Positions 2,969-62,577 of a stretch of 64,000 nucleotides of DNA are shown piece after piece. The position numbers and the translations under genes were made by a program. The notes under the pieces are model-generated. The model was not told where the DNA came from and did no database searches. It worked only from the letters and a program-made list of their open reading frames with translations. Source of the DNA: Chlorops oryzae (Eukaryota > Arthropoda > Insecta > Diptera > Chloropidae). The stretch spans positions 117,174,500 to 117,238,499 of the forward strand of contig CM035806.1 of the NCBI GenBank assembly GCA_020466095.1, written 5' to 3'. How positions within the stretch are numbered: the stretch's first letter is position 1; each line of letters begins with the position of its first letter.

Positions 2969-3217
2969 GGGTAGGTAGGTAGGTTGAAGTGGCCGCCACT
3001 TAGGCCGTTAATCGGCCCATTGTAATACCAAGCAGGATTTCTTGTGTTTGTGTTAGTGTATTTTTTATTATGTAGTGTGTCCCTTAACATGCGATTTTAT
3101 GAAAAACCAGTGCTAGGCTTGGAACATTACACTCCGTTTCGCCTGTGCCGGGAATCGAACCTCGGACCCTGGGATCAAGAGCATAGCGCGCATCCCCTAC
3201 GCTATCCCAGAGCCACA
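2969..3217 (-). mobile_element. tRNA-derived SINE
   Basis: Read on the - strand it begins TGGCTCTGGGATAGCGTAG, with an A-box-like stretch near 3194-3204 and a good Pol III B box (GGTTCGATTCC, 3151-3161). It ends in a short ACCT/CTAC repeat. A direct repeat AAAAAAAGGCAT flanks it at 2957-2968 and 3218-3229, a proper LINE-type target duplication. It is a retroposed SINE in a PAN3 intron, not a functional tRNA: no cloverleaf continues 3' of the B box. Confidence 0.78.
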
Positions 3218-3661
3218 AAAAAAAGGCATAAATAAGTACAAAAAAGTGATAGATTTTGACCTAGCGTGGTGGAAGTGGTAGAAAGTGAAAATAGTGGTAG
3301 ATCTACCATCAAAGTAGTAGAAGTCCGAGCTCTAACAGGGATCGAAAATATTTATGAAATTGATTTTGAAAACTTTAATATGCAATTTTAATTCAAAAAT
3401 TGAATAATTATTATTATTTTCTATTTTATACTTATATTAAAAATCGCCACAAAAAAAAATACAAAACAAGACTTATTTTCTAACTTTTAAATTAATAGGT
3501 CTAATGGGAGGGAGTTTCAAAAATCGCCAAAAATAGCGTACGTGATACTTGAATGCTCCCTTTTATGTACATAATGAGTGTTTTCTGATGACGTTATCAC
3601 GTAAAACTATCGTCCGTAAATTAACTTTACAAACACCAATTTTTTCTTTTTGTATTTCCAG

Positions 3662-3798
3662 GAAGATCTTACCGCTCTTGGACGCTTAGTATTAGCATTA
3701 GCATGTCGTTGTCTTCAATCCGTGCAACGAGAAAATGTACAATCCAGCATCGAAATGGTTTCTCGCAGTTATTCCTCAGATTTAAGGAATTTTATTGT
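3662..3798 (+). CDS. PAN3: PAN3 exon (pseudokinase end / coiled-coil linker)
   Basis: The acceptor follows a strong pyrimidine tract (TTTTTCTTTTTGTATTTCCAG). The donor is GTAAGT at 3799. Reads EDLTALGRLVLALACR, then QRENVQ and SYSSDLRNFI, matching the PAN3 region just before the C-terminal knob. Ends in phase 2 (GT, completed to Val by the first base of the next exon). Confidence 0.95.
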
Positions 3799-6700
3799 GT
3801 AAGTCTTAATCAAGATCCCTTCGTTCTGAAAACGGTTTCCTTCCATAGATCCTCTCTCAACCTCTCCGTCTTTCGGTTTTGTCTGTGGTTCTCTAGACAC
3901 AATTCTTCATTTATTCAAGCGGATCCATTGGAATCGAACATTTTAAACGTGTGTGTGTGTATGTTTTATTTTTTTTTTACGGGGACTCATAAGCATCGAA
4001 AGCCTAAAATAGTGTGGGAATTCAATCCACTAAAAACATGTCCTCGCGTCCGGACGGAAAGCTCCTTATGCAACTACCATGAGGTATTACGTCAGAAGGC
4101 GTCCTAAGCATTAGCTCAAATCATTGGTGTGGTCGTACGGGTTCGCGACTGCTCGATTTGTTGAGAGGGAAACCTCTCTTGCTGCTGTTCGCGGGAACGT
4201 TGTCATTCAAAAACACTTAACAGAGTCATGATTCTCGCTGCAGCATTCGATATTGCTCGCCATGCGTCCGGCGAACTTATCATTTTCAACACGAGGTTAT
4301 GCGCGGTTATGCGATCGCCAATGGACTCGTTCATTTCTTCCCTTTCTTCGTTGAATCGAGGACAAGAAAAAAGAACGTGGTTGACGTAGTCCAGTATTCC
4401 TTAGCAGCTTGGACAAATCGTGTCATCTTCATGCTTGAAACGATGTAGTAGCTCTTTGAATGCTCCATATGCGCTTAAGATCTGTGTAAGGTAGAAGTTC
4501 ACATCTCCATGTTTCCTGTGAACCCACACATCAAAGTTTTTGATCAGAGTATGAGTCATCTCCCTTTCCACGACTCATCCCACCGCTGTTGCCACTTTCG
4601 CATAGTGGAGCGGCGAGCCTCCTCCTTCGGAACTTTTCTGTTCCGTATATCATGCAGTTCGTTGGCCAGCAAATTCAAGCGACGGCATACTAGCTATAAC
4701 GCCTGTAGCATCATCCGAAACAGTGTGGTAACCACTGATAACGCGTAGTGAGCTTATCCGGTATGTGCTTCTAGCGCCTGCAGCATATCGTTACCTTAAT
4801 GTAGAAAGGCTCCCAACTAACATTTTTTTCAAAATTCACTTTCTTGCATACTTCGATATACCACCCCCAAATATACCATGATAAAAAAAATTAAGGTTCT
4901 GAGATCAAAAATAACGGATATACAATCATTTAAAAAAGAAGCCCTAACTGACTTCAAACACTTCTTTAAACAAAAAGTCTTAACTCACTTCTATTGTGGT
5001 AGCTAAATTTCACAATTATAAGCCCCCTGAAAATCGTATGAAAATTCAAAAACACAAAACAAACAAAAAAAACCGGCCCAGCCTTACCAAAGAAAAAAAT
5101 GTGAGAACAAAAACACTCAAATTCTTCGTATGAAATTACATCAATCTCATCCGGTTTGATACGAAGATATACGTGCATTTTGGTAAATTTTCGCTGTTAT
5201 TACCTTACGCGCCCTTTGATATGACTCTTCGCAATTCATCTATTACAAAACCAACATAAATACCGAATATGAGTTATTTCCTCAAAGATCGAAACATTGT
5301 ATGGAATGCTTGTATTAAAGGAAAAAAATTCTGATCACAAAAAAACATTGGATAATTTACAACATTTAAAAAAATTGATGCCTCCTAACTGCGTTCATTT
5401 CTATGATACTTTACCCTATGCAATTTTTTTTGTAGTTATAATTATTCTGCGATAAACGTGCAACCTTTCACTTTATCCAAAAAGCCCTAACTTACAATTA
5501 CTTTTAAGAAATTCACACTCAAAAAGCCCTATATGACAGCTTTATAAAAAAAAATACAATTTGGTTTGAGTACTCCATTTTTCTTTGGTTTTAAACTTAA
5601 ACTGCATCAAAAGAAATTTCATTTCCTTATTTTTTTTTTTTTGGTTTTAATTAAGTTTTTTCTCTCTCCTGTAAAATTCTAAATTTTTTAGTTAGGGCTT
5701 TCTACATTAAGGTAACAATATGCGCTTTTTACTATCGCTGGGTCCTAGATGGGAGCTGCGTATAATATTACAGAGGTGATGACACTCGCAAGGAGTTTAT
5801 TTTTTTTGGCCTTCTTGCGGCCTTCTCATTTACCACCTTCAAGTGGTCTCTAAAAGTTATCCTGGTGTCAATGAGGACACGAAGATACCGCAGATGGGCG
5901 TGTGTGTGTGTGTGTGTTTACTGTTTACTGTTAAACTTTTTTCAGATTAATTCAAAAAGTTCTTTCTTTGAAATTTCGTTAAAGGCTTCGCCTCAGTTTG
6001 GTAAGAAATACCCGCGGAAATTCCTACACTATTTCGCCGAGGAAAAAAGGTATCATAAAAATATCCTAAGCATTTTTAGGCAAAAAAAGCACTAAAATAT
6101 TATGATACTTTTTTTACTGAATTGCGGTCAGCCGTCAGAAATGCCTGTTAGAGATTTTCTGAAGCTTGATTTCTTCATATGGAGTTTTTCGTTCCCAGCC
6201 GAACTGAGGCCTTAGCTTGAGATGGGATATTATCCCAGAATTTATACTCGTATATCGATAGCTTCGGATGAAAATGGCGTAACTCATGTTTTTCAAAAAA
6301 CGAGATTTTTTACTTTTCTGATGGTCGACTCTCAAATACACCCCTCCAAAAAAAAAAATGGACGAGATTTGATTGAAAATACCGAAGTTGTAGTTACTTT
6401 AAAAAAAGGACTATCTCATAGCGAACATTTTTGCGAAAGAAAAAGCCCTAACTCAGAAAAAGACGTTCAATTACGCCAACCAGCAAATATTTATATATAA
6501 AAATGCACGTTTTGTAAGCGTTCAAATGTAAGCAAAACGATTAGAAACCGCTGCTATGACATATAGAAAACGCGTCAAAGAAAGCGTTTAATAATCGAAA
6601 CGAACCCATCAAGCTTTTAAAAGAGGATTACAAAACATTTCATATAAGACTCGAATTTAAGCGTTTTGCGACAACATTTAGAAATCGATTGCACTTCAAA

Positions 6701-9700
6701 GCGAAATGAAAGTAAGTTCTAGCTTCGATAAAAATAATTTTTCGGTTTTTTGGATAATTTTCTGATTTCACATATTTTTTTTAATTTTTATTTCTCGCTC
6801 ATAATTCCCGCTGTTGTGGGATTTGAACCTCGGAACTCTCGCTTGGTTAGCAAAAACCTTCTTCATGCAAGCGTTTTTTAAGCTTAGTTTGCAAAACGCT
6901 TGTTAAAATACTTGCTGGGACTGATTTGTATTAACGAAAGTTTTGTACACACACGAACGCAACCGACCGTTGTTCGCACGAATTCGTATACGCTCTGCGT
7001 GTGCGACTTCTGCGTCGGCAGAATTTTGTCTCCCTTGCACAAGAGCGAAATTTGGCCTACACTGAATTACGCTGATCATCCTTTCTGTTTCTAATGGGTT
7101 TTTTTTAAGTTCCGCTTTTTGTTCTGTTGCGTGCCTTCGCGCTGGTGCCAGGAGCAATGGCTGCGAGCTTTGGGATATGACCCTTCAGACTTAATTTATT
7201 TCAAAACCAATATAAAAGAAGATTATGTTGCATTACCACAGAAGTCTAAGGCTGTTATGCAGAGTAAAAATCCTGCTCCTTTACATAAAAAAAATTGAAT
7301 TTCTAAAAAAATAAATAAAATAAAAAATGGGACCACTTGCAGAACTCAAGTTTTCTTATTATTTCTGTAAATAATATGAATATTTTTCTAAGCACATATA
7401 ATATATTCTTAAATGCTGGATGGTATCCTAAAATTGTATTTATGTTTTAAACTTTGCGTAAAAAGACCTAACTCACGTGTTTTAAACGAAAGGTGATATC
7501 TAAAAGCCCCAACCAAAGAGTATACTATTAGTAAAGAGATTACATTTCTCTCATTTTCAAAATGTAAACAAAGCACATTAGGGTAACGCGATGGGCTAAC
7601 GCAAGCTGAACATGTTCAGATTATCAAAACAAGTGTCGCTTTCTTGTTTGCTTGCTTATGTGCATGAACGAGTGCCTGAACGAAAAATCAGTGCGAACGA
7701 ATTGTCGTTTAGGCCGCATTTTGTCATAGTTATATTTTACTTTTAAAATTATTTATTGCATGCGCTTATTTTCAACTCTTTTATTTTTAGTTTTATATTG
7801 CATATTCTAAATTTAAGAAATATGTTTTTATTAACCCCTTTCACCAGTGGTCCATTTCCCAGTAAAAAATAATCAATTTCTTCAACTTTGAAATAAGTAC
7901 AATACAGTACCCTCGGGATAACGTCAACTAATTAAAACCGCGAGTGTTGACGTTTACCAGATTGTTGACGTTTATGATTGTCCTCATTTTAGATCAAAAC
8001 ATAGTCGGGACTATAGTTTTACACGATTTTTTAGTATAAACTAAAACAAACCAATAATCTGATCCAAACGAATGTTTATGTATTTGTAAAAAATGAACAA
8101 ATATTTGATGAGTTTTTTAGAGCTCAATTTATACGCGCAACATCAAAAATTTCGAAACACAACTGAACAAAGAGAGCAAAAACTACATTGTTCGCACAAA
8201 AGGAGGTTCCCGAAATTCTGAGAATTTGTATTCTATACGTAATTCCAGCTAAAATTTTGTATTATGCAGAGTTTACCTTTTAGAGCTTTTAGGTTTTGTT
8301 GACGTTTTAGAATAGTCAATGTAATTAAAAGGGTGTTGACGTTTTGGGGTTTTGACGGAACAGGGGGTTCTCGTTATCCCGAGTGTACTGTATGTGAATT
8401 CAATTTTTATACCCGACACACTCTGTGTCGAAGGTATATTGCGTTTGTGTGTAACACCCCGAACCAGTCGAGATAGACCATACAAAATATATAAAGAAAT
8501 GATCAGCGTCACCAGGAGATTCGATTTAGACATGTCCATCTGTCTGTCTGTCTCGCCGTCTGTCTGTATACAGTTATCTTATCAAAGGAGTTGACTTATC
8601 TTGACAAAATTTGGTATGCGTGCTCACGGCGACATGAGTAAGAATAAGTTCGAGAATGGATCCGATCGGACCATTTTTAGGGGTACCTACAGTACTGGGG
8701 TCTGTTACGAAAATCACAAAAACTGCTCTAAAATCGAAGTATTTCAACATATTTTGATGAAATTTTATATTTGAACATGTTTCAAGGCAAGTAATACGAT
8801 TTCCTAAAATTTAAAAAGTGGGCGTGGCAGAAGGGCATTTTTAGAAAATTGTCCCCTACACCCGAAATTTAAATGGGACTTGAACGAAATTTGGCACTTA
8901 TGCTTCCTTTGTAGCCATAAACATCCTGCAAAAAAATTTTCTTGATCGGTCCATTATTAAGGGTACCTCCAGTACTAGGGCCTGTCACAAAAATCCCAAA
9001 ACTGCCTCAAAATCGGACTCGAAATATTTCAATGAAACTTAGCATTTTTCCGTATATTTAGCCTCCGATTAGAATTGCAAAAAAAAAAATTGGAAAAGTG
9101 GGCGTGGAAAAGGGGCGATTTTCATAAAGAAAATTAACAAAAGTCGGTATGTGGGGCCCCTAATGACCTTAAAAACCTCTTGAATATTCTTACTTAGTGG
9201 TCCTGTTTTTTGAGCGTTGTTCAAAAATTATTTAAACATGTGTGTCTGTGTCGGGTATTTTATTGTCAGGCTCGCAGAAATAAATTTTTTTATGAACGAT
9301 TTTTTCTTTAGAAAAACATTCGGAAAAGGTCCCTTTTTGTCATTAAATTTATTTTTATAAAAATTAATTTCCAATCAAAAAATGAAACGAATTTATATTT
9401 TAAGAACTTCAAAATAACTATTCCGAAAAGAAAATTACATGTAAAATAGTTTTCAATAATTAAAAAATTTTAATTTTCTGTACGAAAAAACTTACAGTGG
9501 TCCAAAATGGGTTAAAGGCACATATTCCTACGTAATAATGTGAAATCTACCTGGTCCATATTGAATTCATATTTTGATGGAATAACAATTATACTTCATA
9601 AATCCATGATATGGACATTTTCTGTGGTATTTTTATACCCAGCGTAAGCAGGGTATATAAATTTTTTTGCGAAACTTGGAACTAAGCTCCGGCGATATAG

Positions 9701-12700
9701 ACAAATATAAATCTTGATCAGGATTAAAAACTGAATCGATTTAGACATGTCCGTCTGTCTGTCCGTCCGCCCGATATGGCCCGCGGATTGTCGCCTCTAT
9801 ATTTGATTTGTGAAAACTTCTGTACAGAAAGTAAAAATATAATCCGCCAATATTGTCTAGGCGCTGGATATTTAGCTTTCTTGATTGTTTAAAGTCAACT
9901 TTACTTATTCTGCATGAGCTTAAACCGTTGGTACAATTGCGCTTTTATTGCGCTTATGTGCAGCAAATAAAGTATTCTATTATCATACTATACCATATTT
10001 GATTTTTGATTATGAAAAATTTAGCATCATAAGCATTGGGATAAAAAGCAGGTACATATTTCTTTTTTTTATTAAATCAACATACCGGGCAAATGATAAC
10101 AACGCATTTAATTACAAGAAAAATAATTAATAATAAAAACGAACACTAAATATTTACTTATTACAAAATGCGGCCTAGGCATCAATTCGTTCGCACTGAT
10201 TTTTCGTTCATGCACATAAGCAAGCAAGCAAGAAAGCGAAACTTGTTTTGATAATCTGAACATGTTCAGCTTGCATCGCTCACACAAATCGTCGTTGTGC
10301 GATGGGCTAACATCAAAAAATGAGAGAAATGCAATCCCTTTACTAATAGTATACTCTTTGTCCCAACTCAAAAAACTGCTCGAAACAGAAAAAATAGAAA
10401 CCCAAGCCTAAAACAAACTCTGTGTGTAGTATTTAATTGACTTTGCGTTTAGATTTTTTTAAATATCTAACGTTTGCGATTTTATGAAGTTTTTTCCTTC
10501 TCCTGTAAAGTAAAAATAATAATGAGTTACGCCCTTTCTATCCAAAGCTATCGATATGTTAATTTAATGCGTGTTTCACCCCATCAAATTTATCGAAATT
10601 TCAAAAAATCACTCACAAAGCCGTACGATTCGGGTTTATCACGAGGTGTATTTAAAAAGGTGTATGCAATACGGCAACAACTGCAACTGGAACAAAAACA
10701 ACATAGAATCGGCATTGTCAAACAAAACGGGAATGTCAAAATCGGCTTAGTTATAATTCAACAAAAAATTTGAATTTCAAAAATCGGCTTAGTTATAAGT
10801 GAACAAAAATTTGAAAAATGTAAACAAACAAATTTTGAGAAGTGTTTTTTTTATACTCGTTTTTTCGATAGTTGGTTTCTTAAAAGAAAATAAGCCTTCT
10901 GGTACTTACATTCAACGACATTCGTACAGTGAAATATCCAACCGGCTGATTGAATTGTGATCCATTCAAATAAAAATTATCAATTGACTAAAATCTTTGA
11001 ATCCTACCAATATAAAATAAAACAAGGTGTTTTTACGGTGGAAAATCAAATTAAAAACCACTCTTTTTATTTGTGGTTTTCTTGGGTCGAGTGAATTCGT
11101 CACTAATGTGCTATAATAAAATATAATTAGCTTATAAAAAGAAATATGGAAAGATATAATGCATTATTCAAAATATTTTGCAAAATAATAAGAGTTTCAG
11201 AATTAAAAGTAACGTCAATGAAAAATCGAAGCAAACACTAAAGTTTCGAAAAATTTTATTTGTCAAAAATGAATAAGAACAAGCATGAATATCTATTGCA
11301 TACACCTTTTTAAATACACCTTAGGTTTATCATATGTGTATTTATGTTTTTAATTCTCGTTAAAATTTTGTCGCCATAAAATTCATTTTCGTCGAAATAT
11401 TTGTTTTGAATTTTAATCCATTAATTTTTTTTTTTAATTTTTGTTTTTTTTCGATTTTTTTTTCTAATGCAATCCGATAACGGAAAACATGGCTTCACGT
11501 GCGAACACGATTCCGAATTTAAAAAATACGTCGACGCTGGCACATTCGAAAAAAAATTCGTTACGTAATGAATATCCGGACGCTCAAAATCCACGATTGC
11601 TCCCTCATAATGTCGATAACCCGCGGAAATGCTTGAATGCCTTTGCTGGCGACGAAATTCCATCGACATCCGAATCACTACGAAATGGCAAATCATCGAA
11701 TGGCCGACAATATCGGTCTATATCTCCCGACGTACCACGAACCAAAACTCCTCGTCTTCATGCCCTCAAAAAATCCTGTGCCACAACGCAACTTCATAAA
11801 CTTGCACAATCGCAATTTGCTGCATCGCAATCCAATGCGAAATCAAAATCCGATGACGATGAAACATCCCAACCCAAATCGCAAACGCAATCTAATTCCT
11901 CCCATGCTAATCCTCATGCCCGTCCCGAATGCAATGAATGTGCGACACCGAAAAATGCTTCGGCGAAATGCAGTTACCTTTTCAGCACTTCCCAACGCCG
12001 TTCGGTCACTGATTTGATGCCAATGATCGGCGCTCGATTTTACACTCAATTGGAAGCACTGCAGTCCCAATGTGATATGCAGGAGGATGAACTCTCAAAG
12101 GAAATGGAAAACGGGCGATTGTATAGGATTTTGGTCAAGTTGAACTGCATTAATGAGAGACCCGAGTAAGTATTTTTTGGTCCCCAAAAGTGTTCTTTTT
12201 TCTTGTTTTTTTTGCTGTGTTTCAAAATGTTCTTCTCCTTGTCTTCAGCTTAAATTTAGATTGTACTTGGTCTGAAACTGGTGATAGATACATGTTAAAA
12301 TTGTTTCGTGATTATTTGTTCCATTCCGTCACTGATGATGGCCGACCGTGGTTGGATCACGCACATATTGTACAAAACTTGAACAAGCTAGATGCTGGCT
12401 CACTGGAAAAGGTAAATGATTCATTCTTTGTGAGTGTGCTTACACAAATGTGTCTCTGTAAAAATCTCATTGTGCTCGTTTACAAAACTAAGAACGGAAA
12501 ATCAAGCAAAAAAAACAATTTCAAGTTTTGGTGAAAATCTTTTTACAAGTGTTCGTTATTGCATGTTTCCACTTAGAATTTACTTAGTGGATTGTCTCTA
12601 TGGATTAGAGCATGCCAAATATCTGCATTAAATCTAATTAATGTAGTTAATTCACAATCATCCTATTATAAAGTACGGCAAAACAAACAGGATTTCGTTA

Positions 12701-14278
12701 TACGACATTTCATAAGGTAAGTGCACCACGTAAGGCCCACCAACACCTTTCCCAATACAGTGCACAAAGTATTGATGATACAAACCCGATTGTTTTTGTG
12801 TTGTTTTATTTGGTCAATTTTCTATAGAAAAACAAAAAATTCTACCAAAAAACAGTATCGGAAACGGTCCTAAAAATCGATTTAAAAAAACGCCTTTTTG
12901 GGCCTTACGGGGAACATGTGTACCTTGAAAGGCCCACTTACTCCTTGTTTGAGATAATGAACCCAAACCTGAATTAATTATTTTTGAAAGCTTTATAGGT
13001 TAATTTACATTGTAAAAGCTAGTAAAAAAAAATTAAATTAACAGAAAAAATCCGTTTATTAAAAAAAAACTAATTAAATGTTACTAAGCTTTTTTAAATT
13101 AAGAATAAAAGATTAAACGCTATTTAAGGATAAAAAAGGTATAGTTGCCTTTCGTCCTACTCTTTTGACCTCAGATCAAGTCAAAATATGGTTTCTGAAT
13201 GTCCGTCGTTGCATTTTTTATGTATGGGCCTTCAAAGGCTTTCCAAGAAAAAAAATTTCCATTTGAATTTTTTACCATAAACATATCTCTGTATCTTCAC
13301 AATACAACAAACTTTGTTATTTAAAGAAAGCAACCCACAATTTCACTATAGATTATTATTTTTTAGGCGTCGCCCGCTATAAAAATGCCATTTTTACGTC
13401 TGTTATTTTCAATTGACTGTGGTCGCCACAAATATTGTGCGATTGTCTTAATTTTTTATTTCTATTAACTTGTAGACATGTTTCAACATGTGCAAGTGCA
13501 AGAACATTTGGTAGTTAGAAGTTGGTGAAAATGGAAGTGGGCCTTACGAGGAGCCGGGCCTTACGTGGTGCACTTACCTTAGTTTACTAACTGAGTTTGA
13601 CGACCTCCTAAAGGGTCTTATAATAGAAATTATTTTAGGCCATTATAATTATAACAGATAATGTTCGTGTTCCATGTCCATTTAACTATGAGAGTGTTAG
13701 TGGGAGCTGTGAAGTCGTATTGAAAATGATTTTGTAATACTCGTAATGTCGCCAAGTGCTCAACTTATCTACATATTTACAATATATATACCGGAATTTT
13801 CTGCATATTTTTAATACGCGATAGCTTATTTCAAGAGCTGTAATATTTGTTTTTGTACAGATAGTCTAAAAGGTCTTGTTATTGAGTTATAGCACTTTCA
13901 AGTAGGATGATTTTTGTATGTATTTTTAAATATTATAAAAAAAATACTCAGATATTTTTTAAAAAATCCTCTATTTTCTATACAAAATATGTCCTCTATC
14001 AAAGTGCTATAATTCAACAACGGTACCTTTTAGACTAGTTGTCTAAAAAGAAAAAAATATAGCTGTTGACATAAGCTATCGCGTATTAAAATAATGCAGA
14101 AAATTCCGTGGACGCACTGTATATCAATATGTTTTTTAAAATGGTTTTTAATCGTACGCAGGTCCAACTGATGTCACGCGACGAGCAATCGGTTTTGATT
14201 GTCACTTATGCTGAACTTAAAAATTGTCTGGAAAACTCATTTGCCGAATTGACCGAAAATGCTGCTAATCCCCAATAA
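3662..14278 (+). CDS. PAN3: PAN3, C-terminal part (four coding exons)
   Basis: PAN3 is the regulatory pseudokinase subunit of the cytoplasmic PAN2-PAN3 deadenylase; it tethers the PAN2 nuclease to poly(A)-bound PABP and to miRNA effectors. Exons by splice signals and phase: 3662-3798, 11974-12165, 12249-12411 and 14162-14278, together 609 nt or 202 codons plus TAA. The peptide follows the family order: DLTALGRLVLALAC (end of pseudokinase and coiled-coil linker), then RSVTDLMPMIGARFY, TWSETGDRYMLKLFRD, LNKLDAG and SRDEQSVLIVTYAELK (C-terminal knob that binds PAN2). Phases 2/2/0 join without frame loss. Upstream exons lie outside the window. The first intron here is 8175 nt and loaded with transposons. 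Identification rests on memory of animal PAN3 but is very specific. Confidence 0.95.
4203..4788 (-). pseudogene. R1-like LINE ORF2, C-terminal remnant (part 2)
   Basis: On the - strand this reads as the post-reverse-transcriptase tail of an R1-clade non-LTR retrotransposon: an RVISGYHTVSDDA segment, then KWQQRWDESWKGR, DVNFYLTQILS, a C-x2-C zinc-knuckle start (TICPSC), VNHVLFSCPRFNEER and WRAIS, ending at a TGA at 4203-4205. There are in-frame stops and at least one indel near 4545, so it is dead. It continues upstream at 5718 beyond an inserted element. The clade call is by motif memory. Confidence 0.8.
4789..5717. mobile_element. TIR element inserted in the R1-like LINE
   Basis: Termini CGTTACCTTAATGTAGAAAG and, inverted, TGTTACCTTAATGTAGAAAG bound 929 bp. 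The flanks repeat ATAT (4785-4788, 5718-5721) and the LINE reading (AGC GCA TAT GCT) resumes across the duplication, proving insertion. Non-coding. The interior repeats words like AAAAGCCCTAACT (near 4940, 4976, 5482, 5521, 5692). Superfamily not assigned; a 4-bp duplication is unusual for the common groups. Confidence 0.75.
5718..5883 (-). pseudogene. R1-like LINE ORF2, C-terminal remnant (part 1)
   Basis: On the - strand: LRYLRVLIDTRITFRDH, then KVVNEKAARRP and, after a shift, LLASVITSVILYAAP. This is the R1-type segment that precedes the part at 4788. It begins next to a GT-microsatellite (5899-5917), where the LINE similarity is lost. Stops and shifts show decay. Confidence 0.75.
5884..6799. 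other. intron, repeat-derived, no gene
   Basis: Contains a GT-microsatellite at 5899-5917, another AAAAGCCCTAACTC word at 6441-6454, and several AAGCGTTT words. I see no coding sequence. Confidence 0.4.
6800..6870 (-). repeat. tRNA-like unit (SINE fragment)
   Basis: On the - strand a canonical B box (GGTTCAAATCCC, 6818-6829) follows CTAACCAAGCGAGAGTTCC. It has no convincing full cloverleaf and is probably a decayed tRNA-derived SINE. Confidence 0.35.
8403..9275 (+). repeat. mini-me-like repeat, copy A
   Basis: Starts TATACCCGACACACTCTG and ends GTGTCGGGTATTTTATTG. Contains a TATATAAAGAAATGATCAG core, a GTCTGTCTGTC proto-microsatellite (8533-8570) and repeated GGGCGTGG words, the layout described for dipteran mini-me repeats. 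Another copy lies inverted at 32432-33245. Non-coding. Confidence 0.7.
9631..9870 (+). repeat. mini-me-like repeat, GCGTAAGC type
   Basis: TTTTATACCCAGCGTAAGCAG, then ATATAGACAAATATAAATC, TTGATCAGGAT and CATGTCCGTCTGTCTGTCC at about 9746. Same organisation as 33311. The 3' limit is uncertain. Confidence 0.6.
10361..11324. other. PAN3 intron, nothing recognised
   Basis: AT-rich. There is a short open frame near 10474-10773 without motifs. The sequence CATACACCTTTTTAAATACACC before 11324 faces a related inverted word near 10637-10665. No gene supported. Confidence 0.4.
11325..11973 (+). promoter_or_regulatory. 647-nt AG-exclusion zone before PAN3 acceptor
   Basis: From 11325 to 11971 there is no AG dinucleotide on the + strand; the first AG after the one at 11323-11324 is the CAG that closes the intron (11971-11973). 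The bases just before that CAG are not a pyrimidine tract (CTTCGGCGAAATG). The strong tract is at about 11429-11464, immediately followed by CTAAT (11464-11468), a good branch-point match. The simplest reading is splicing from a branch point about 505 nt upstream, with scanning to the first AG. A long + strand frame also runs through the zone (see 11489). Confidence 0.8.
11489..11973 (+). other. open frame in phase with PAN3 exon (alternative start?)
   Basis: An ATG in good context (AACATGG) opens a frame that runs without a stop for 485 nt straight into the PAN3 exon at 11974, in the correct phase. The 161 residues are polar and low in complexity (rich in Ser, Asn, Lys), with no domain I know. 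The absence of AG removes TAG stops, which makes long frames likelier by chance; a second + frame is open over 11637-12017. It could be the start of a short PAN3 isoform or an accident of the AG-free composition. I favour accident, weakly. Confidence 0.3.
11974..12165 (+). CDS. PAN3: PAN3 exon (start of C-terminal knob)
   Basis: Reads YLFSTSQRRSVTDLMPMIG, then ARFYTQLEA and ENGRLYRILVKLNCINERP, a PAN3 knob segment. Acceptor CAG at 11971-11973, donor GTAAGT at 12166. Starts with one base completing Val and ends in phase 2 (GA). Confidence 0.95.
12249..12411 (+). CDS. PAN3: PAN3 exon (TWSETGDRY segment)
   Basis: Preceded by TTCTTCTCCTTGTCTTCAG. Reads LNLDCTWSETGDRYMLKLFR, then FHSVTDDGRPWLDHAHI and LNKLDAGSLEK. 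Donor GTAAAT at 12412, phase 0. This is the most conserved part of the PAN3 knob. Confidence 0.96.
12715..13579. mobile_element. non-autonomous TA-target TIR element in PAN3 last intron
   Basis: Perfect 24-bp inverted ends (starting AGGTAAGTGCACCACG) at 12715-12738 and 13556-13579, flanked by TA at 12713-12714 and 13580-13581. 865 bp, non-coding, with further internal copies of GGGCCTTACG in both orientations. TA duplication points to the Tc1/mariner/pogo group. Confidence 0.8.
13792..14108. mobile_element. foldback element just before PAN3 last exon
   Basis: Long imperfect inverted arms: CGGAATTTTCTGCAT at 13792 faces ATGCAGAAAATTCCG ending 14108, and TAATACGCGATAGCTTAT faces ATAAGCTATCGCGTATTA. 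Similarity continues through CTAAAAGGT and its complement to a loop near 13950. It ends 53 nt before the acceptor, so the RNA hairpin would sit beside the branch-site region. Confidence 0.7.
14162..14278 (+). CDS. PAN3: PAN3 last coding exon
   Basis: Follows TTTTAATCGTACGCAG. Reads VQLMSRDEQSVLIVTYAELK, then ENSFAELTENAANPQ and TAA at 14276-14278, the typical PAN3 C terminus. Confidence 0.96.
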   Translation, partial: VQLMSRDEQSVLIVTYAELKNCLENSFAELTENAANPQ

Positions 14279-15637: not shown

Positions 15638-16925
15638 TTAGGTGTAGTAAAAAGAAATCCATTATTTTTGCATTAAATTGAGGGCTTTATTTAAGATAGT
15701 TAGAATGACCCGATTTAGGTCAAATATGCGCCGTTTTGTTCGATAACTTGTTGCCATTTTAAAGGTAATTTCATTATGCCTCTCTCATAGAAGCCCTCGT
15801 TCCTATTAGCAAAAAATTGAGACAGTCGAATTTCATAAGCCTCTCTTGAAGCGAATGTTTCACCAGCAAAATTGTTCGCCATGGACAGGAACAGATGGTA
15901 ATCACTTGGTGCCAGGTCCGGACTATAAGGTGGATGCAGAAGAACCTCCCAACCAAACTCCCGGAGCTTCTGGCGAGTCACTATCGATGTGTGTGGCCTG
16001 GCGTTGTCCTGATGGAACACAATTCCTCTCCTATTGGCCAAAGCTGGCCGCTTATGGGCGATTGCTTCCTTCAGACGGTCCAATTGTTGACAGTAGAGTT
16101 CCAAGTTAAGAGTTTTGCCGTATGGGAGCAGCTCATAGTAGATAATTCCCTGCCAATCCCACCAAACACACAGCAAAACCTTCCTGGCCGTCAATCCTGG
16201 CTTGGCCACCGTTTCCGTTGGTTCACCGTGTTTCGACCACGACCGTTTTCGCTTGACGTTGTCGTAAGTGACCCACTTTTCATCACCAGTCACCAACCGC
16301 TTCAGAAATGGGTCGATTTTGTTGCGGTTCAGCAGCGATTCGCAGATGGAAATTCGGTCTATGAAGTTTTTTTGCGTTAACTCGTGTGGCACCCATACAT
16401 CGAGCTTCTTTGTGTATCCAGCCTTATTCAAATGGTTCCAAACGGTTTTTTGTGCAATCTTTAGCTCTTTTGCAATCGAAACAGTGCTAACATGACGGTC
16501 GGACTCGATAATTTCCATGATTTTATCGACATTTTCGACAATTGGCCTTCCAGTGCGTGGTGCATCCTTGACATCGAAGTTACCGGAACGGAATCAACGA
16601 AACCAAAATTGCGCATGATTGGCTGTTACAGTATTAGGTCCATAAACGCTATTCACATTTTCAGCCGCCTGGCTTGCGTTTTCTCCCTTATCGAAGAAAA
16701 ACTGTAAAATGTAGCGAATTTTCTCTTTGCTGATGTCCATCTTTGACAAGCTCTCAAACAAAACTGAATCCATCAATCAAAAAAGTGTCAAAAAAGCTTT
16801 TTTAGTAGGAACTGTCATCTTTCTAATGCCTCCTAGCGGAACACGATCGGACTTATACAACGCGAGATGCAGATAAATAACGCCATCTATTGGAAAAATA
16901 ATGGATTTCTTTTTACTACACCTAA
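15638..16925 (-). mobile_element. mariner transposon (copy 2), nearly intact
   Basis: Perfect 32-bp inverted ends (TTAGGTGTAGTAAAAAG...) at 15638-15669 and 16894-16925, flanked by TA at 15636-15637 and 16926-16927. 1288 bp, inserted into the Harbinger-like MITE. It belongs to a different mariner lineage from copy 1. Confidence 0.95.
15715..16776 (-). pseudogene. mariner transposase with one premature stop
   Basis: A single - strand frame of 354 codons from the ATG at 16776 to the stop at 15715, interrupted only by TGA at 16594-16596 directly after NHAQFWFR, where the family normally has Arg. It shows helix-turn-helix repeats, WVPHEL, VTGDEKWV (Asp 1), FHQDNARPH (Asp 2) and YSPDLAPSDYHLF (Asp 3). 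Length is normal for mariner. A CGA-to-TGA transition is the likely lesion (inference). Otherwise undamaged, so a recent arrival. Confidence 0.93.
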
Positions 16926-41866: not shown

Positions 41867-41872
41867 CAATCA
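41864..41872 (+). promoter_or_regulatory. candidate stop-codon readthrough site (TAG CAA TCA)
   Basis: The stop between ORF1 and ORF2 is followed by CAATCA, fitting the TAG-CARYYA context known for tobamovirus-type readthrough. ORF2 is in the same frame and has no ATG before its endonuclease core. Function inferred. Confidence 0.55.
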
Positions 41873-44800
41873 GAAGTGTGTCAATTGGTAGCCTATAATG
41901 TAGCTAATCTAAATAGCAAGCTTAATTTCAATAGTTTTTTCTCATATATAAATAAGTTTGATATTTTCTTTTTATTCGAAACTCATGTTATTGCTGATAA
42001 ACGCAAACATTTTGCAACTTATTTTAAAGACTATATATTACACTGGATAGATGCAAAAAAAGTACATAATGCTGGACGTGCAAGCGGTGCTTGTCTGTAT
42101 GGATTTAGAAAAACTATACAGCCAAAATACGCATTAAAATTTCAAATTTTCTCTGACAATGTTCTGTTGTCAGCTAAGTTCGGTGATATTGTCTTTCAGC
42201 TTATCCCACGTTATTTGAATTGTACGTCTTGGAAAAGTGATTTTGACAGGTTTGAAGAGTTCCTGGTTAGCTTAGGGTTAACATCTTACTGTATTATTGG
42301 CGATCTAAATGCGCGGATTGGTGAAAGTCAGGTAGTTGATAAGAATTTGTTGCAATATTATCCATCAGTCTCGCAAAACAGAAAATCAAAAGATAAAATT
42401 ATTGATGGAAAAGGGAAAAAATTAATCGACCTTGTTGAAAACTTAGGTGGTATTTTTATAAATGGTAGGGTGCCTGGGGACAATATTGGCAATTACACAT
42501 TCTGTGGTGTAATGGGTAAATCGGTGATTGACTATTGCATATGCTCATTTGATTTTTTACAAACGTTAAGTAATTTCACGGTTCCTAGCAAAGTTTATTC
42601 TGACCACATGCCACTCTCTCTTTCCATATCTTCTGGGATCAACTTGAACACTAAATGTTGTACACTGCCTCAGAAAATTAACTGGAACCCAAAAAATTCC
42701 TTAAAATATTCTGCGTCTTTAAGTTTGACTTCTAATTGCGATTATATTCAATCAGACTTACCGATAGATAACAAGGTTTCTATTCTTATGGATAAAATTT
42801 ACTCAGCAATGGGTAAAATCAAAAGTAATAAATATTTTGAACCAAAAAATAAATGGTTTAACTCCCAATGTGAATCGGCGCGCGTGCAAATGCTCGTAAA
42901 ACTGAATCTTTACCGCAAGTATAATTCTCCATTGTTTAAAAACTTGTATCTTGAAAGTAAAGCTAAATATCGTGAAGTATGCAAATTAAGAAAACGCAAA
43001 TTTGAAGTCGAAAACATTGAAAAGCTAAATAACGTTAAAAATGCCAGTGATTGGTGGAAATTGGCTAACTCTATGAAAAACAGCTCCCCGCAGATAGGTA
43101 ACGCCCTTGATGTTTCCGCTTTTTATAATCACTTTAAGAAACTGTTTTCATATTTGCAATGTGATGGTCTTATATCTTGGGCTGTACCCTACAAAGTTGA
43201 CCCCTTTCTCGACTCCCCTTTTGAGATGCGTGAACTGAATATAGTTCTAAAAAATGCTAAACTTAACAAAGCTCCTGGCCAAGACAGAGTTATTTACGAG
43301 TTCTACAAATTTGCTCCACAAGATTTTCTTCACGAAACACTGTCTTTGATGAACAAAATTTTTCTTTCTCAAGATATACCCTCATCCTTTCGCCGCTCTA
43401 TTATCATCCCATTGTACAAAAAGGGTGATGCGAATGAAGTTTCAAATTATAGAGGCTTATCACTTCTTGATACGCTTTATAAAATTTTTACTGGCCTTAT
43501 CCTTAATAGAATTAATAGTTGGATCGTTTGCAATGATGTTCTAAGTGAATTTCAGGCAGGTTTTCGTAGAGGCTACTCTACGGTTGACAATATTTTCAAT
43601 TTAAACAGCATTGTTCACCTAAACTTGGAAAATAAAAATAAAACGTATGCATTTTTTGTGGACTTTTCCTGTGCCTTTGACTCAATACCAAGAAATTCCT
43701 TATTTTACAAACTGTCCACTATGGGCATGTCTACAAAAATGATAACTATTTTGCAAATGATATATTTTGATACTTCCAGTCAAGTGTGGGATGGTAATTT
43801 ATTATCAGAATCGTTTCCGGTTGTAAAAGGTGTTAAACAGGGCTGTTTGTTGAGCCCAGTTCTATTCGCATTATACTTGAACGACCTGCACAATATTCTA
43901 CCTGGTGGTATTAGATTTGGTGATTTAGTTGTTAAAGTACTTCTCTATGCTGATGACTTAGTTATTCTTGCTAGCTCGGAAAGGGAACTGCAATTAATGA
44001 TAAATTCGTTGCATAATTATTGTAGTCAATGGTGTCTTAACATTAATTTATCCAAGTCCAAGATTCTTATTTTTGGAAATGGCCCTCGCATATCAAACAA
44101 TCTAGCTTGGTATTATGGCAATGATAAAATTGAAATTGTAAACGAGTACAAATATCTGGGAGTAATTTTAACCTTTAACTTGTCATACAACAAGCATCTC
44201 GATGCTAAGCTTACATCTTCAAAAACAGCAATTAACGCTTCTTGGTTAAGTTACATTCATAACCGCAAAATTAAATTATGCAACAAACTCAAAATTTTCG
44301 ACTCAGCCGCGAAGTCAATCATGTTTTATGGTGCACAAGTGTGGGGATTTGATCGTTTTGAGCAGGTGGAAAAATTGTTCCGGTTTTTCATGAAAAAAAT
44401 ATTTTATTTGCCAAATAACACACCAAACTATATGCTACATTTGGAAACCAGGCTCACAACGATGTTTATACAAACTCTCGCGTTACACTTTGGCTATATC
44501 CAAAAAGTCTTCAGATATTCACATGCAAGGCTTCCTCGTTTACTCGCTGAAATAATTATAACTAAAAACGTTTCTTGGGTTCGTAAATGGCACTTGCTAT
44601 GAGATGAGCTTCAAGTAGACTTTGATTTCGACTTTGGAGGTCCAAATTTGAAATCCCAACTAGACCACTTTTTGCGACAATTAATTGATCTTGACCATAG
44701 AAGGCACTTAGAGGGCGCAAGGAATTCACAACTACATGATGCCTACCACCACCTACAGTATGATGTTCCCCCCTATATAACCGACAAAAACTCTACAAAT

Positions 44801-56946: not shown

Positions 56947-57592
56947 CCGACCGAGGGGTTCTCTTACAAATTTTGATTTAATAATATCAGGTGGCTCGTA
57001 CAAAACTTTCAAGTTATTCGAGTTAGATAAAACTGTATACATACAAATCGCAAAAATCATTTATATTTATTCGTAGCTGCAAATTGGTGGACTTGCAGAT
57101 TTTTCGGTTCAATACCATAAATCTGACCCCATTTTAAAGCTAACTTAACGTAATCTTTGAAAAAAAAAAGAAAAAAAAAATAAATAAATAAAACAAAATT
57201 AAAATAACAGCTTAATCATTGGAAACTAGGTATTGGAATCAGCATAGATAAGGCTTGATGCTATTTTACGCTACCGACCTAGATTTCTTATGCCATGCTT
57301 TTAAAATTTCATTTTTTTTTCGATATATGGATAGTGGAATACTCTAACTTTCGGCTTTAATAGCCTGGTTAATGCCGTATTCATATTGAAGAGGAAAGTA
57401 CCCGTAAATATCAACCTTTAATTATCCTGGTTTAACTTTTTGATCAATTTCGAAATTCGTTTGATACACGCATTAGTAATTCTAAGGAGTAAGATCATAC
57501 CTCGCATACAATTAAATCTCTTTAAACTTTTATTGAAAATATTTCCTTTTTTTTTGGTGGACAAATACGTAAATATATAAATATAACTAGCC

Positions 57593-59299
57593 ATGTCAGT
57601 CCAACACAGCGGTGACAATTTGCCTCAAGCCTGTTTTGTTTGCAGCTCACCCATCCTTGATACGCATGAAATTGCGATAACTCCTTGTCAACATCAATTT
57701 CACAAGTTATGTATTGTTACGTGGTTAAAACGCAACTCTGCATGTCCTCAATGCAAGCAGCCTTGTAACAGTAGGGACTCCTCTGCTAAACCATCAGTAA
57801 ATCGACCACAGACTAGATCTGCTTCAGCCTCCCAGCAAGTTATTGCTACCCAAATCCCTTCTACCAGCCTTAACGCAGCAAATGTTCAAGCCGACCAACC
57901 GTCAGGTTCAGCAAACGTCCAAGCGGACCAACCGCCAGTTGCATCAAATGCTGAGGTGCCTCAACAAAATTCCTCTACTCAGCAAAACAATAGTACCGAA
58001 GAAACTAGAATTAAAAATATTGTAACTGACCTCTTAGCAACACAACAATCCACTTTTTTCGGGAATTTCGAAGCTCGAGTTGAGCAACTAATTTCAAACA
58101 ATATTGAAACCTCTTTAAGCTCCATTATGGCCCGAATCAATAATCGAAACAATTTTCAACAGCCTTCTAGAAGTCAATATCCAGGCAATGCAACCATTAA
58201 CTTGCCCGAAGAGTTTATGAACTTACCTACTCATACAAACACTCCTAATTTTAACCGAGAATTTAGAAGCCCTATTAGTCATCTCACACATTCAGCTCAG
58301 GCGGCTAAAAATGCTCAACTAATCTCAAGTTGGAACGTTCGATTTGATGGCTCTCCTAGTCTAACAGTCGAAAATTTTATTATGAGGATCGAATATCAAG
58401 TGCTTGATACACTAGGAAATGACTTTTCTCTTTTGTGTGAACACATACATAGCCTTTTTGCAAAAGAAGCTCGCGATTGGTACTGGCGATATCGACGTAC
58501 GGTTGATCGTGTACAGTGGCCAGCTCTATGCGATGCTTTAAGGGAAAATTTTGGCGAGCACCGATCCGACACAGACATTAAGGAGAATATGCGTTCTAGG
58601 AAACAAGGTTCAAACGAAACGTTTGACGATTATAAAAATGCCATACTAAAAATTGCCGAAAGTTTATCTTCTCCTATGTCTGATGCTGAACTAGTGGAAA
58701 TTTTGAAGCGCGGATTAAAGCCAAGAATTCGGCAACAGATTTTATATTTTCCTATCAACTCGTTAGCAGAACTGCGCACATTTTGCCTAAAAGGAGAGAG
58801 CTTTCTACTAGAACTTAATAAAACTAATATCAATTCCAATTTTTCAAATAATAGGGGTATTCACAAAGGCGTCGGAAAGTAGGAAAGTCGGAAAATCGGA
58901 AAATTTTAAATGCTTAAAAAGTTGTGCAAAATACAAAAAAAGTTTAAAAAGTTTTTAAGGAGTCGCAATTTTCCGACTTTCCAACGTTTTTAACACGCCT
59001 TTGTGAATACCCCTAATATGAATCGTGTTCAAATGCCACGCAGGCAAATTTCCGAGATTTCCGAAGATTTATCACCTGTCGAAATTGAGGGGGATTCTAT
59101 AGAAATTTCTGAAATGACTCATCGTTCTGGTTCGAATAATAAATTGATGTGCTGGAATTGCAGAAGCGAGGGACATAGATATTATGATTGCATTGAACCA
59201 CGAACTGTCTTTTGCTATGGTTGCGGTGCTTTGAACACCTATAAACCACATTGCACCAAGTGTTCGGGAAACGGGAAGACGAGCGAAGGCTTACAGTAA
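57593..59299 (+). pseudogene. Gag with N-terminal RING-H2 finger, broken by a MITE
   Basis: From the ATG at 57593 (in-frame TAA just upstream). Residues 14-54 form a complete RING-H2: Cys14, Cys17, Cys32, His34, His37, Cys40, Cys51, Cys54 (CFVC, PCQHQFHKLC, CPQC). A Gln/Asn/Ser linker follows, then a retrotransposon Gag core (WNVRFDGSPSLTVENFIMRI, LKRGLKPRIRQQILY). A 162-bp MITE at 58853-59014 adds an early TAG at 58880-58882. Beyond it, in the same frame, are zinc knuckles (CWNCRSEGHRYYDC, CYGCGALNTYKPHC) and the stop at 59297-59299. RING-H2 domains usually act as ubiquitin ligases; that role here is inference. Confidence 0.88.
58853..59014. mobile_element. AGGGGTATTCAC MITE, copy 2, in gag
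   Basis: 162 bp, ends AGGGGTATTCACAAAGGCGT and inverse, AAT on both sides (58850-58852, 59015-59017). With the duplication it adds 165 nt, a multiple of three, so the frame is kept but stops are introduced. Confidence 0.9.
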
Positions 59300-62200
59300 A
59301 ACCTTCGCTAAGACAAAATCTCGCAGAACCGTCCCTCACCTTAAGCTCCGAAATACCAGCGTTTCATAAAATAATTCCCTATAGAGAGCGATTAAAATTG
59401 TATATGGAAAAACGAAATGAAATTTTTGGTAGAGATAAAAATTTAACAAAAAAATCTATTCGAAATTCAGTGCGTATGAAGCAGTTTTGGCTAAACGTAG
59501 CTACAGTAAAAAAGAATGTCAAGAACCTTGTCTGTTCAGTTCAACATAAACCAGCTGACTTACGCCCGTATGCTTCAATTTTACTTGACAATCAAAAGTA
59601 TCTTGGCTTACTTGACAGCGGTGCTCAAGTGTCGTGCATTGGTGGTAGTCTAGCGGAAGAAATTGTGAAGAGCTCTCATTTTAAAAAGCTCTCTACAGCT
59701 ATTCGTACTGCTGACGGTAACCAACAGATCGTTTTTGGAAAAGCTGATTTGCCCATAACGTTTCAAAATCAAACTGAAATCATTAGTTTTTTTGTTGTCC
59801 CGACCATTTTAAATAAAATTATTCTCGGTATCGATTTTTGGCTAAAATTCAAAATAGCCCCTAACTTAGTTGCTTCGTTGGAGTTCGATTTAGAGAGTGA
59901 CAATAACTTCGTTAACTTGACTTGTGAACAAAAACAGCGCTTGGAAGTTGTTAAAAATCTTTTTCCGTCCTTTGAAAAGGAAGGTTTAGGAAAGACACAC
60001 CTTCTAGAATATAAAATTGAATTGGAACCAAATTCAAAACCCTTGAAGCAAAGATATTACCCTATTTCGCCTGCTATTGAAAAGCTAGTTCATTCAGAGA
60101 TTGACGATATGCTTGGCCTAGGTGTTATAGAAGAAGCTCCTAATAGCCCCTGGTCGAGTCCAGTAGTACTGATTAAAAAGCCAAATAAACTCCGATTATG
60201 CTTAGACTCTCGAGCTGTCAATAAAATGAGCATTAAGGATGCATATCCATTGCCACATATTGATGGCATACTTAGTCGTCTACCAAGAGCCTCATATATT
60301 ACCTCATTAGATCTGCGTAAAGCTTTTTGGCAAATACCTTTGGATATTAATTCTCGCGATCTTACTTGCTTCACTGTGCCAAACAGGCCACTTTACAGAT
60401 ACCGCGTAATGCCATTTGGGCTATGCAATGCTCCGCAAGCATTATGTAGATTAATGGACAGAGTAATCAAAGCTAACCTTAAAACAGAAGTTTTCGTTTA
60501 TTTAGACGATTTGCTTATCGTCTCTCCAACCTTTAGTAGGCACATGGAAGTCTTAGCTGACGTTGCACTCCAATTACGAAAGGCGGGGTTGACAATTAAC
60601 GTAAAAAAGAGCAAGTTTTGTTTAAAAGAGGTCCGTTACTTAGGTTTTATTGTGGGAAATGGAACATTGAAAACTGACCCTGATAAAATTGCCGCCGTTG
60701 AACACTATCCAGTGCCAAAAACAGTCAAACAACTGCGCAGGTTTTTGGGAATGGCTGGATGGTATCGTCGATTTATTGACAACTTTTCAACCATCACTTC
60801 TCCTCTAACGGACCTTATCAAAAAAGGCAAATCTTTTCAGTGGACAGAGGCTGCTCAAATAGCTTTTGATGCGCTTAAAAAGTGTTTAACAACCGCCCCA
60901 GTGCTAGTTAGTCCAGACTACCATAAAGAGTTTATTATTCAGTGCGACGCCAGCAAACTTGGGATAGGAGCCGTGTTAGCTCAGAAGAATGAGGATGGAG
61001 TCGAAGCCCCTATAGCTTACTATTCGAAAAAATTAAACAAAGCCCAAAGTAACTATAGTGTTACTGAGCTAGAATGCCTCGCGGCGATATTCAGTTTAAA
61101 AAAATTTCGAGCCTATGTTGAAGGTCAGGATTTTAAGATAATAACTGATCATGCAAGCCTTCAATGGCTAATGCGACAGCCTGATCTAAGTGGGAGATTA
61201 GCTAGATGGTCACTGAAACTGCAAGGATTCAAGTTCAAAATAGAACACCGCAAAGGTAGTCAAAATATTGTTCCTGATGTTCTTTCTCGGCAAAATTTCG
61301 ATGAAATAGCAGAACTAAATTTCACGCCCCTTATTGATTTGGATTCTGATGAATTTAATTCCGAAGAATATGAAAAATTAAAAAAACACATAACCGATAA
61401 TCCCAGTAACGTACCTGATTTGCATATTTTAGATAATCATGTCTACAAACGCGTTGAACACCCAGATGGCAACCTTTCGCGAGAAGCAACTAATTGGAAA
61501 TTGTGGGTACCAAAAACGTTAGTCACTACTGTCATTGAAAATGCCCACATGCCCCCAAATAAATGTCATGGCGGTATAGGCAAGACGCTTGAAAGGTTAC
61601 GAAGAAATTTATACTGGCCACAAATGGCCCTTGCCGTAAAAGAATTCGTTGATAAATGCGATGTTTGCCATCAAAATATAGCCCCTAACGCATACCTTAG
61701 ACCACCAATGCAGGGTAAATTTTCAGTACAACGTCCTTTTCAAAAGATATATATGGATTTTTTAGGTCCTTATCCGAGAACTAAAACAGGCAACATCGGT
61801 ATTTTCATTCTTCTTGATGCTCTCACAAAATTTCCGCTATTAAAAGCTGTTAAAAAGTTTTCTGCTAAAGTGGTTGTTGATTTCCTCAAAGAACATGTTT
61901 TTCCTATCTTTGGCACGCCTGAGATTGTTATCACTGACAATGGTAAGCAATTCAAATCGTTACTGCTTCAAACATTTCTTAGTAACAGTGGCACAAAGCA
62001 TGTCTTCACAGCTCTCTATAGTCCACAAGCGAATGCCAGTGAGCGGGTGAACCGTTCCATTATAGCCGGCATACGTTCCTACCTGTTAAAGGATCAATCT
62101 CTCTGGGACAAGCACTTGTCGGATATAGGTGAAGCATTGCGTAGCTCGTACCATCAAGCAATCGCTTGCACTCCATATTATGCATTATTTGGCCAATCTA

Positions 62201-62577
62201 TGGTTTCTCATGCAAAAGAGTACGAGTTGTTTAAATCCCTGAACTTTTTCGATGTTGATTGTCTTGCGAAAAAGGATAAATTGGACCTAATACGTCAGTC
62301 GCTACGAGATAACATAGCTTCAGCCTTTGAAACTTCTGCTAATAGATATAACCTAAGAAGCTCTAGCCAAACTTTTAAAATAGGGGATTTAGTGTACCGA
62401 CGGAATTTCATTCTAAGTGACGCTTCAAAAAAATTTTGTTCGAAACTGGCACCAAAGTTCGTTAAAGCGAAAATTTTAGGTATTAAAGGTAATTGTATCT
62501 ACCAGTTAGAAGACGAAGATACTAAGCGGCAAGAGTTCTACCATCAAAAAGACATAAAGCCTCGAAAAACTAATTGA
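59251..62577 (+). CDS. Gypsy Pol polyprotein, intact
   Basis: Frame open for 1108 codons with no defects seen. Protease LLDSGAQVSCIG (about residue 120), reverse transcriptase with LDLRKAFWQIPL and FVYLDDLLIVS (about 417), RNase H with IQCDASKLGIGAVL (about 563) and TDHASLQWL. Integrase has an H-H-C-C finger (HGGIGKTLERL...CDVCH, about 773), Asp in YMDFLGP, Asp in VITDNGKQF and Glu in NASERVNRS, then a C-terminal region ending KPRKTN. Frame is -1 relative to gag with 49 nt overlap; no ATG is needed because it is reached by frameshifting. Confidence 0.93.
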   Translation: MHQVFGKREDERRLTVKPSLRQNLAEPSLTLSSEIPAFHKIIPYRERLKLYMEKRNEIFGRDKNLTKKSIRNSVRMKQFWLNVATVKKNVKNLVCSVQHKPADLRPYASILLDNQKYLGLLDSGAQVSCIGGSLAEEIVKSSHFKKLSTAIRTADGNQQIVFGKADLPITFQNQTEIISFFVVPTILNKIILGIDFWLKFKIAPNLVASLEFDLESDNNFVNLTCEQKQRLEVVKNLFPSFEKEGLGKTHLLEYKIELEPNSKPLKQRYYPISPAIEKLVHSEIDDMLGLGVIEEAPNSPWSSPVVLIKKPNKLRLCLDSRAVNKMSIKDAYPLPHIDGILSRLPRASYITSLDLRKAFWQIPLDINSRDLTCFTVPNRPLYRYRVMPFGLCNAPQALCRLMDRVIKANLKTEVFVYLDDLLIVSPTFSRHMEVLADVALQLRKAGLTINVKKSKFCLKEVRYLGFIVGNGTLKTDPDKIAAVEHYPVPKTVKQLRRFLGMAGWYRRFIDNFSTITSPLTDLIKKGKSFQWTEAAQIAFDALKKCLTTAPVLVSPDYHKEFIIQCDASKLGIGAVLAQKNEDGVEAPIAYYSKKLNKAQSNYSVTELECLAAIFSLKKFRAYVEGQDFKIITDHASLQWLMRQPDLSGRLARWSLKLQGFKFKIEHRKGSQNIVPDVLSRQNFDEIAELNFTPLIDLDSDEFNSEEYEKLKKHITDNPSNVPDLHILDNHVYKRVEHPDGNLSREATNWKLWVPKTLVTTVIENAHMPPNKCHGGIGKTLERLRRNLYWPQMALAVKEFVDKCDVCHQNIAPNAYLRPPMQGKFSVQRPFQKIYMDFLGPYPRTKTGNIGIFILLDALTKFPLLKAVKKFSAKVVVDFLKEHVFPIFGTPEIVITDNGKQFKSLLLQTFLSNSGTKHVFTALYSPQANASERVNRSIIAGIRSYLLKDQSLWDKHLSDIGEALRSSYHQAIACTPYYALFGQSMVSHAKEYELFKSLNFFDVDCLAKKDKLDLIRQSLRDNIASAFETSANRYNLRSSSQTFKIGDLVYRRNFILSDASKKFCSKLAPKFVKAKILGIKGNCIYQLEDEDTKRQEFYHQKDIKPRKTN
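59266..59309 (+). promoter_or_regulatory. -1 ribosomal frameshift signal (gag/pol)
   Basis: Heptamer GGGAAAC at 59266-59272 is in the gag phase as G GGA AAC. After a 9-nt spacer comes a perfect 8-bp stem AGCGAAGG (59282-59289) / CCTTCGCT (59302-59309) with a 12-nt loop that contains the gag stop. Shifting by -1 there enters pol. Confidence 0.85.

Follow-up and report, generated by a model that had tools for sequence, protein, structure and literature searches.

An exon of PAN3 probably serves two transcripts. Positions 11489-11971 would be the end of an intron in a long transcript and the coding start of a short one, and the dinucleotide AG would have been purged from it for the sake of the long form. 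The evidence tips modestly toward a specific cause, namely that this segment of 161 codons is free of AG because it is the other transcript's path from branch point to acceptor, about 500-560 nt, with splicing dictating which Lys, Gln, Glu, Ser and Arg codons are used.

Results

The PAN3 intron and its acceptor

Splice sites and exons were assigned by homology within the window, the whole 64,000-nt stretch of DNA analyzed, which lies at C1:117174500-117238499, and are listed in Table 1 with the other features. When the PAN3 query was searched against its own genome (442 Mb), 9/9 matches fell in one region, C1:117157028-117188756. The PAN3 exons align well with Glossina and other PAN3 proteins. 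The upstream exon ends ...SSDLRNFI-GT and the exon at 11974 begins T-TAC-CTT, giving the junction V/YLF. Joined at 3798/11974, the two exons translate as FIVYLFSTSQRRSVTDLMPM, whose counterparts are VYLFTTNNRRSVTDLMPM in PDB 4bwp_A, a chain that we take to be from Drosophila, and IVYLFTTTQRRSV in Glossina. Homology to these two proteins confirms the PAN3 acceptor that the initial annotation had placed at 11971-11973. Because the two exons join by homology, the intron between them must be removed to make full-length PAN3, and in the canonical V/YLF join the exon at 11974 would be used as an internal exon. A second AG at 11984-11985 (TTTTCAG), 12 nt past the acceptor, could be an alternative acceptor; its use would cost YLFS, four residues kept in relatives.

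Table 1. Features of the PAN3 region. All are on the forward (+) strand; coordinates are those of the window.
Feature	Position	Strand	Basis
Upstream canonical PAN3 exon	3662..3798	+	tblastn with protein P0002, 86% identity; in-frame join to 11974
Donor GT/GTAAGT	3798/3799	+	Homology
Canonical PAN3 intron, 8175 nt	3799..11973	+	Both splice sites fixed by homology
AG-free zone, 647 nt	11325..11971	+	Dinucleotide scan
Candidate distant branch region with two TTAAT motifs (11413, 11421), a T-rich tract and CTAAT 11464-11468	11413..11468	+	Motif positions and pyrimidine content; branch use inferred
161-codon AG-free open frame, ATG 11489, in phase with the PAN3 exon	11489..11971	+	Open frame, periodicity, codon-level absence of AG
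Two CTAAT motifs (11892 and 11907), rival near branch points	11892..11911	+	Motif search; 78 and 63 nt from the acceptor
PAN3 exon, 192 nt, after acceptor CAG 11971-11973; opens the PF18101 domain	11974..12165	+	Homology
PAN3 exon	12249..12411	+	Homology
Last PAN3 coding exon, with stop codon	14162..14278	+	Homology

Other frames were seen in the window. Near PAN3 are a mariner-type transposase frame (PF01359) at 15718-16593 on the minus strand and a reverse-transcriptase frame (PF00078) at 41867-44599 on the plus strand. An open frame at 57587-58879 (+) encodes both a RING finger (PF13639) at residues 15-57 and a retrotransposon gag domain (PF03732) at residues 287-379, and downstream of this frame lies a long frame at 59245-62577 that was judged pol-like by eye.

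Extent and rarity of the AG-free zone

A base-by-base check placed the AGs that flank the zone at 11323-11324 and 11972-11973, so the earlier claim that no AG occurs from 11324 to the acceptor holds. The first AG beyond this long gap is the very acceptor that homology demands. Measured from AG start to AG start, the gap is 649 nt and is the longest in the window, the runner-up being 231. The largest of 10,449 plus-strand AG gaps in a 200 kb genome sample (20 stretches of 10 kb) is 255. 3/3840 windows of 483 nt from both strands of this sample are free of AG, and 3/3 come from one GA/CT-rich low-complexity repeat; the fraction of distinct 6-mers is 0.16-0.23 in these repeat windows compared with 0.84 in 11489-11971. 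The repeat itself is a GA-rich low-complexity region at about 2981-4480 of sample stretch L010 that lacks TC across a 1491-nt gap, and its other strand is the source of the sample's only AG-free windows.

Mononucleotide shuffling of 11489-11971 gave an expectation of 26 AGs, and 0/4000 shuffles had none. Chance loss of AG was ruled out by the shuffles, by the codon resampling described below and by the sampled genome gaps. GC content climbs from 0.23-0.28 to 0.45-0.47 at the start of the open frame, in agreement with the earlier observation that the zone is less AT-rich than the surrounding intron.

An open frame runs through the end of the intron

An open frame spans 11468 to 12169 and so crosses the supposed end of the intron. 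That the zone holds a frame in phase with PAN3 is a feature absent from the initial annotation. ATG 11489, the only ATG of the frame ahead of the PAN3 exon and the source of the one Met among 161 residues, has the context AAAACATGG, presumably a good start context in flies. Just above the open frame is an in-frame stop, TAA 11465-11467, which lies inside CTAAT 11464-11468 and is overlapped by an out-of-frame ATG at 11467. Inclusion as an internal exon from AG 11323-11324 was ruled out, as an in-frame stop comes 17 further codons on. Given these two stops, translation of the frame would require a start of its own.

The frame has the signature of coding DNA. It was kept open in 7/5000 shuffles that preserved dinucleotides and were free of AG. 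Three-base periodicity was 4.2, a value reached in 0/5000 AG-free shuffles, whose maximum was 3.3. Among 141 equally long windows of the PAN3 intron, none had such periodicity (maximum 1.7) and none an open frame. Both properties were found together in 17/3840 windows of the genome sample, in which genes and repeats had been left.

The predicted product is 318 aa long, made of 161 novel residues followed by the exons from 11974, 12249-12411 and 14162-14278. It matches PF18101, which one source names the Pan3 C-terminal knob domain, at profile positions 1-138/138, i.e. the complete C-terminal domain. No other Pfam family was found in the 318 aa at E up to 1, and the kinase-like PF00069, found in longer PAN3 proteins, had no match there. 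A complete PF18101 without PF00069 suggests that the predicted short product is a truncated form and not full PAN3. S, A, N, K and P are abundant among the 161 novel residues, and from this composition we would guess that the segment is disordered. Positions 11633-11662 encode LNAFAGDEIP (residues 49-58), which resembles the PAM2 pattern LNxxAxxFxP and lacks its aromatic residue; this likeness carries no weight in our interpretation.

Relatives and origin of the 161 residues

A protein search with the predicted product returned 595 proteins at E ≤ 0.001, and among the 120 listed none covers more than 56% of the query. 14 of these 120 were read, and the longer matches carry PF00069. The search for relatives of residues 1-166 gave 26 candidates, none at E ≤ 10; because the database was reached through shared 5-residue words, the missing relative is weak evidence in the case of a fast-evolving segment.

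The shared exon is present in 88 proteins, the closest named one being from Glossina morsitans (95%). A rough sorting by pattern divided them into 35 with continuous PAN3, 29 that start at the exon or within it, 8 in which PAN3 sequence gives way to other residues, and 16 with other N-termini; 12 proteins were read whole. Inspection by eye of the ≤45 residues ahead of the exon in the 24 proteins of the last two groups revealed no sequence like that of the zone. P0121, P0123 and P0124 have PAN3, then two to three dozen unrelated residues, then the next exon. The unrelated residues appear to be translated introns, which would make the intron short in these relatives. Since the 161 residues have no relative among the proteins searched and some relatives appear to have a short intron at this place, the dual-use device may be a lineage-specific addition.

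DNA and protein searches of its own genome found the zone to be unique, minor matches aside. These were three short DNA matches, all within T-rich 11392-11467, and one weak protein match (E = 0.58). A transposon or duplicated origin was ruled out, as beyond these matches the searches return the zone itself alone. No Rfam match was found in 10500-12500.

The initial annotation had read the zone as purely intronic. Its tie between splicing and selection on AG stands; its view of the zone as merely intronic does not, as 483/647 bases look protein-coding, and exonic use had entered that annotation solely as a counter-case. An exon with two modes of use allows an intronic AG exclusion zone and a coding stretch to hold together. 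We also weighed the account in which the AG exclusion zone is intronic and nothing more, the branch point is distant, and the open frame is an accident and is never translated. It agrees with the AG-free zone, the tract and the CTAAT, with the AG poverty of noncoding 11325-11488, which is itself mild (4.3 expected, P(none) 0.0065), and with the lack of any relative of the peptide in the protein searches; furthermore, the absence of AG also removes TAG stops. Against it, shuffles equally free of AG seldom keep the frame open and never reach its periodicity, GC climbs exactly where the frame starts, and the phase of the frame fits the PAN3 exon. We regard an accidental frame as unlikely.

Candidate branch points

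A strong branch motif and a pyrimidine tract are present near the upstream end of the zone. The initial annotation had described a strong tract followed by CTAAT 11464-11468, and the tract is indeed there, at 11427-11464, with 87% pyrimidine and a TTAAT at 11434 inside it. It had also noted that the acceptor has no nearby pyrimidine tract, and the 38 bases preceding it are 37% pyrimidine. Its branch point at about 505 nt agrees with CTAAT 11464, whose candidate adenosine is 506 nt from 11973, but is not the only choice, since TTAAT 11413, 11421 and 11434 offer candidate adenosines at 557, 549 and 536 nt, respectively. One observation runs against our preferred reading: the strongest tract sits before CTAAT 11464 and not between CTAAT and AG.

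Folding was examined for an RNA structure that would shorten the path, and none was found (z = 0.81). 80/100 shuffles fold equally well or better, which rules out a hairpin that shortens the path from branch point to AG.

The near CTAAT motifs in Table 1 were not mentioned in the initial annotation. They raise the possibility that the exon is dual-use and the long transcript branches near the acceptor, at 11895 or 11910, the upstream absence of AG having another cause or protecting several alternative branch points. Both motifs lie at short distances from the acceptor and match CUAAY, the fly branch consensus used in the portions of PMC8797185 considered here. Such a branch offers no explanation for the lack of AG over about 400 nt, and the bases before the acceptor have the low pyrimidine content given above. 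In addition, at human PTB exon 11 a good-looking site at -51 is without effect and the one at -351 is essential, according to the covered parts of PMC1431707. We hold a dual-use exon with a near branch point to be improbable as a whole, but either CTAAT could serve as a branch point and rivals the distant candidates at 11413-11468.

AG is avoided codon by codon and on one strand

PAN3's own codon usage was tabulated from 526 codons in nine stretches whose exon ends are approximate. On this basis the 161 codons should contain 20.7 AGs, and they contain 0 (P(none) 1.6e-11). Alternative usage tables raise the expectation to 23-29, with P(none) of 1e-14 and 5e-17 for the two computed. In the zone 14/14 Lys codons are AAA, 9/9 Gln are CAA, 6/6 Glu are GAA, 23/23 Ser are TCN and 10/10 Arg are CGN. 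Codons for these five residues that bear AG number 0/62 in the zone and 37/143 in canonical PAN3 (p = 5e-7). At the borders between codons, of the codons that could end in A, 0/13 do so before G and 52/109 before other bases (p = 6e-4). Canonical PAN3 has the same tendency in weaker form (29/111 before G and 116/269 before others), and the direct comparison of zone and canonical PAN3 before G gives p = 0.04, which weakens the border effect.

AG is the outlier among the 16 dinucleotides, with 0 occurrences versus 24 expected, a deviation of -6.2 SD; AT (+4.8), CG (+3.4) and AA (+2.9) are in excess. CT, which is AG on the other strand, occurs 24 times versus 30 expected (-1.5 SD), and its depletion is not significant. 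The AG depletion thus resembles a constraint that acts on the sense strand of the RNA. A strand-blind mutational bias was ruled out, CT being near expectation. The selection against AG proposed in the initial annotation is well supported, the depletion being tied to splicing, strand-specific and ending exactly at the acceptor fixed by homology. It is very improbable that 11489-11971 is an ordinary coding first exon or the relict of a small gene, with AG lost by chance, codon bias or mutational bias unrelated to splicing, a view which has the coding signature alone in its favor and is opposed by a chance of ~2e-11 or less, by CT near expectation, contrary to strand-blind bias, by the 66 AGs in the 526 codons of PAN3's own coding exons, and by a zone that stops exactly at the acceptor.

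Discussion

The sequence is consistent with the following model. In the long PAN3 transcript, 11489-11971 would be the 3' end of the 8.2-kb intron. The spliceosome would assemble on a branch point and the T-rich tract within 11413-11468, and the first downstream AG, at 11972-11973, would then be taken after a path of ~500-560 nt. Spliceosomes commonly choose whichever suitable AG comes first after the branch point. A second transcript would start inside the intron, from a putative internal promoter, and the same bases would begin its first coding exon. Its translation would yield a short protein in which 161 novel residues precede the whole C-terminal domain of PAN3 and the kinase-like PF00069 part is missing. 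Because any AG within the coding stretch could be chosen too early as acceptor when the long transcript is spliced, selection would have removed every AG by synonymous choice. The C-terminal part of PAN3 presumably contacts PAN2. The short product might be regulatory, perhaps dominant-negative, toward the PAN2-PAN3 deadenylase, and as a guess it could compete with full PAN3.

If this model is true, nature has provided at this locus a clean test of the distance that the spliceosome can cover between branch point and first AG. It would also show a splicing rule overriding codon choice in coding sequence. Furthermore, the model predicts a short form of PAN3 in which the C-terminal domain is complete and the kinase-like part is missing.

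Several elements of the model have counterparts in well-described systems, which are compared here as they appear in the covered parts of each source. Human introns contain almost no AG from 8 nt past the branch point onward (PMC10655562). Human exons with distant branch points include PTB exon 11, GABA receptor exon 23 and alpha-tropomyosin exon 3, which have AG-free zones of 185-381 nt and branch points at -160 to -351 (PMC1431707). They share with PAN3 an AG-free zone that runs to the acceptor and a strong branch motif and T-rich tract near its upstream end. In such exons a near branch site may look good and still play no part. The PAN3 zone of 647 nt and its candidates at 506-557 nt exceed these lengths and distances. 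Furthermore, the PAN3 zone looks coding, whereas the covered parts of PMC1431707 mention no coding role for the human zones.

OGDH intron 4a has distant branch points and an AG exclusion zone of ~280 nt that was kept over evolution (PMC7969005). It resembles the PAN3 intron in its long AG exclusion zone, within which AGs act as spoilers. In contrast, it serves mutually exclusive exons and is not described as coding in those parts of the source. Fly neuronal microexons show that long AG exclusion together with CUAAY motifs occurs in flies (PMC8797185). These microexons are regulated by the eMIC domain, whereas the PAN3 exon has 192 nt and a coding upstream extension. Hybrid first-internal exons likewise are internal in one transcript and first in another (PMC10256964). 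The use of the PAN3 exon as a first exon is only predicted, and a long coding extension under an AG ban is not described for hybrid exons in the covered parts of that source.

In the open-licence literature searched, as far as its covered parts go, no coding sequence this long under an AG ban was found, and no paper there combines PAN3, an intron and AG exclusion. Extended zones of AG exclusion, remote branch points and hybrid first-internal exons have all been described before, in the parts of these sources considered here. What PAN3 would add to them is the distance from branch point to acceptor and the dual use of one segment, both of which are predicted.
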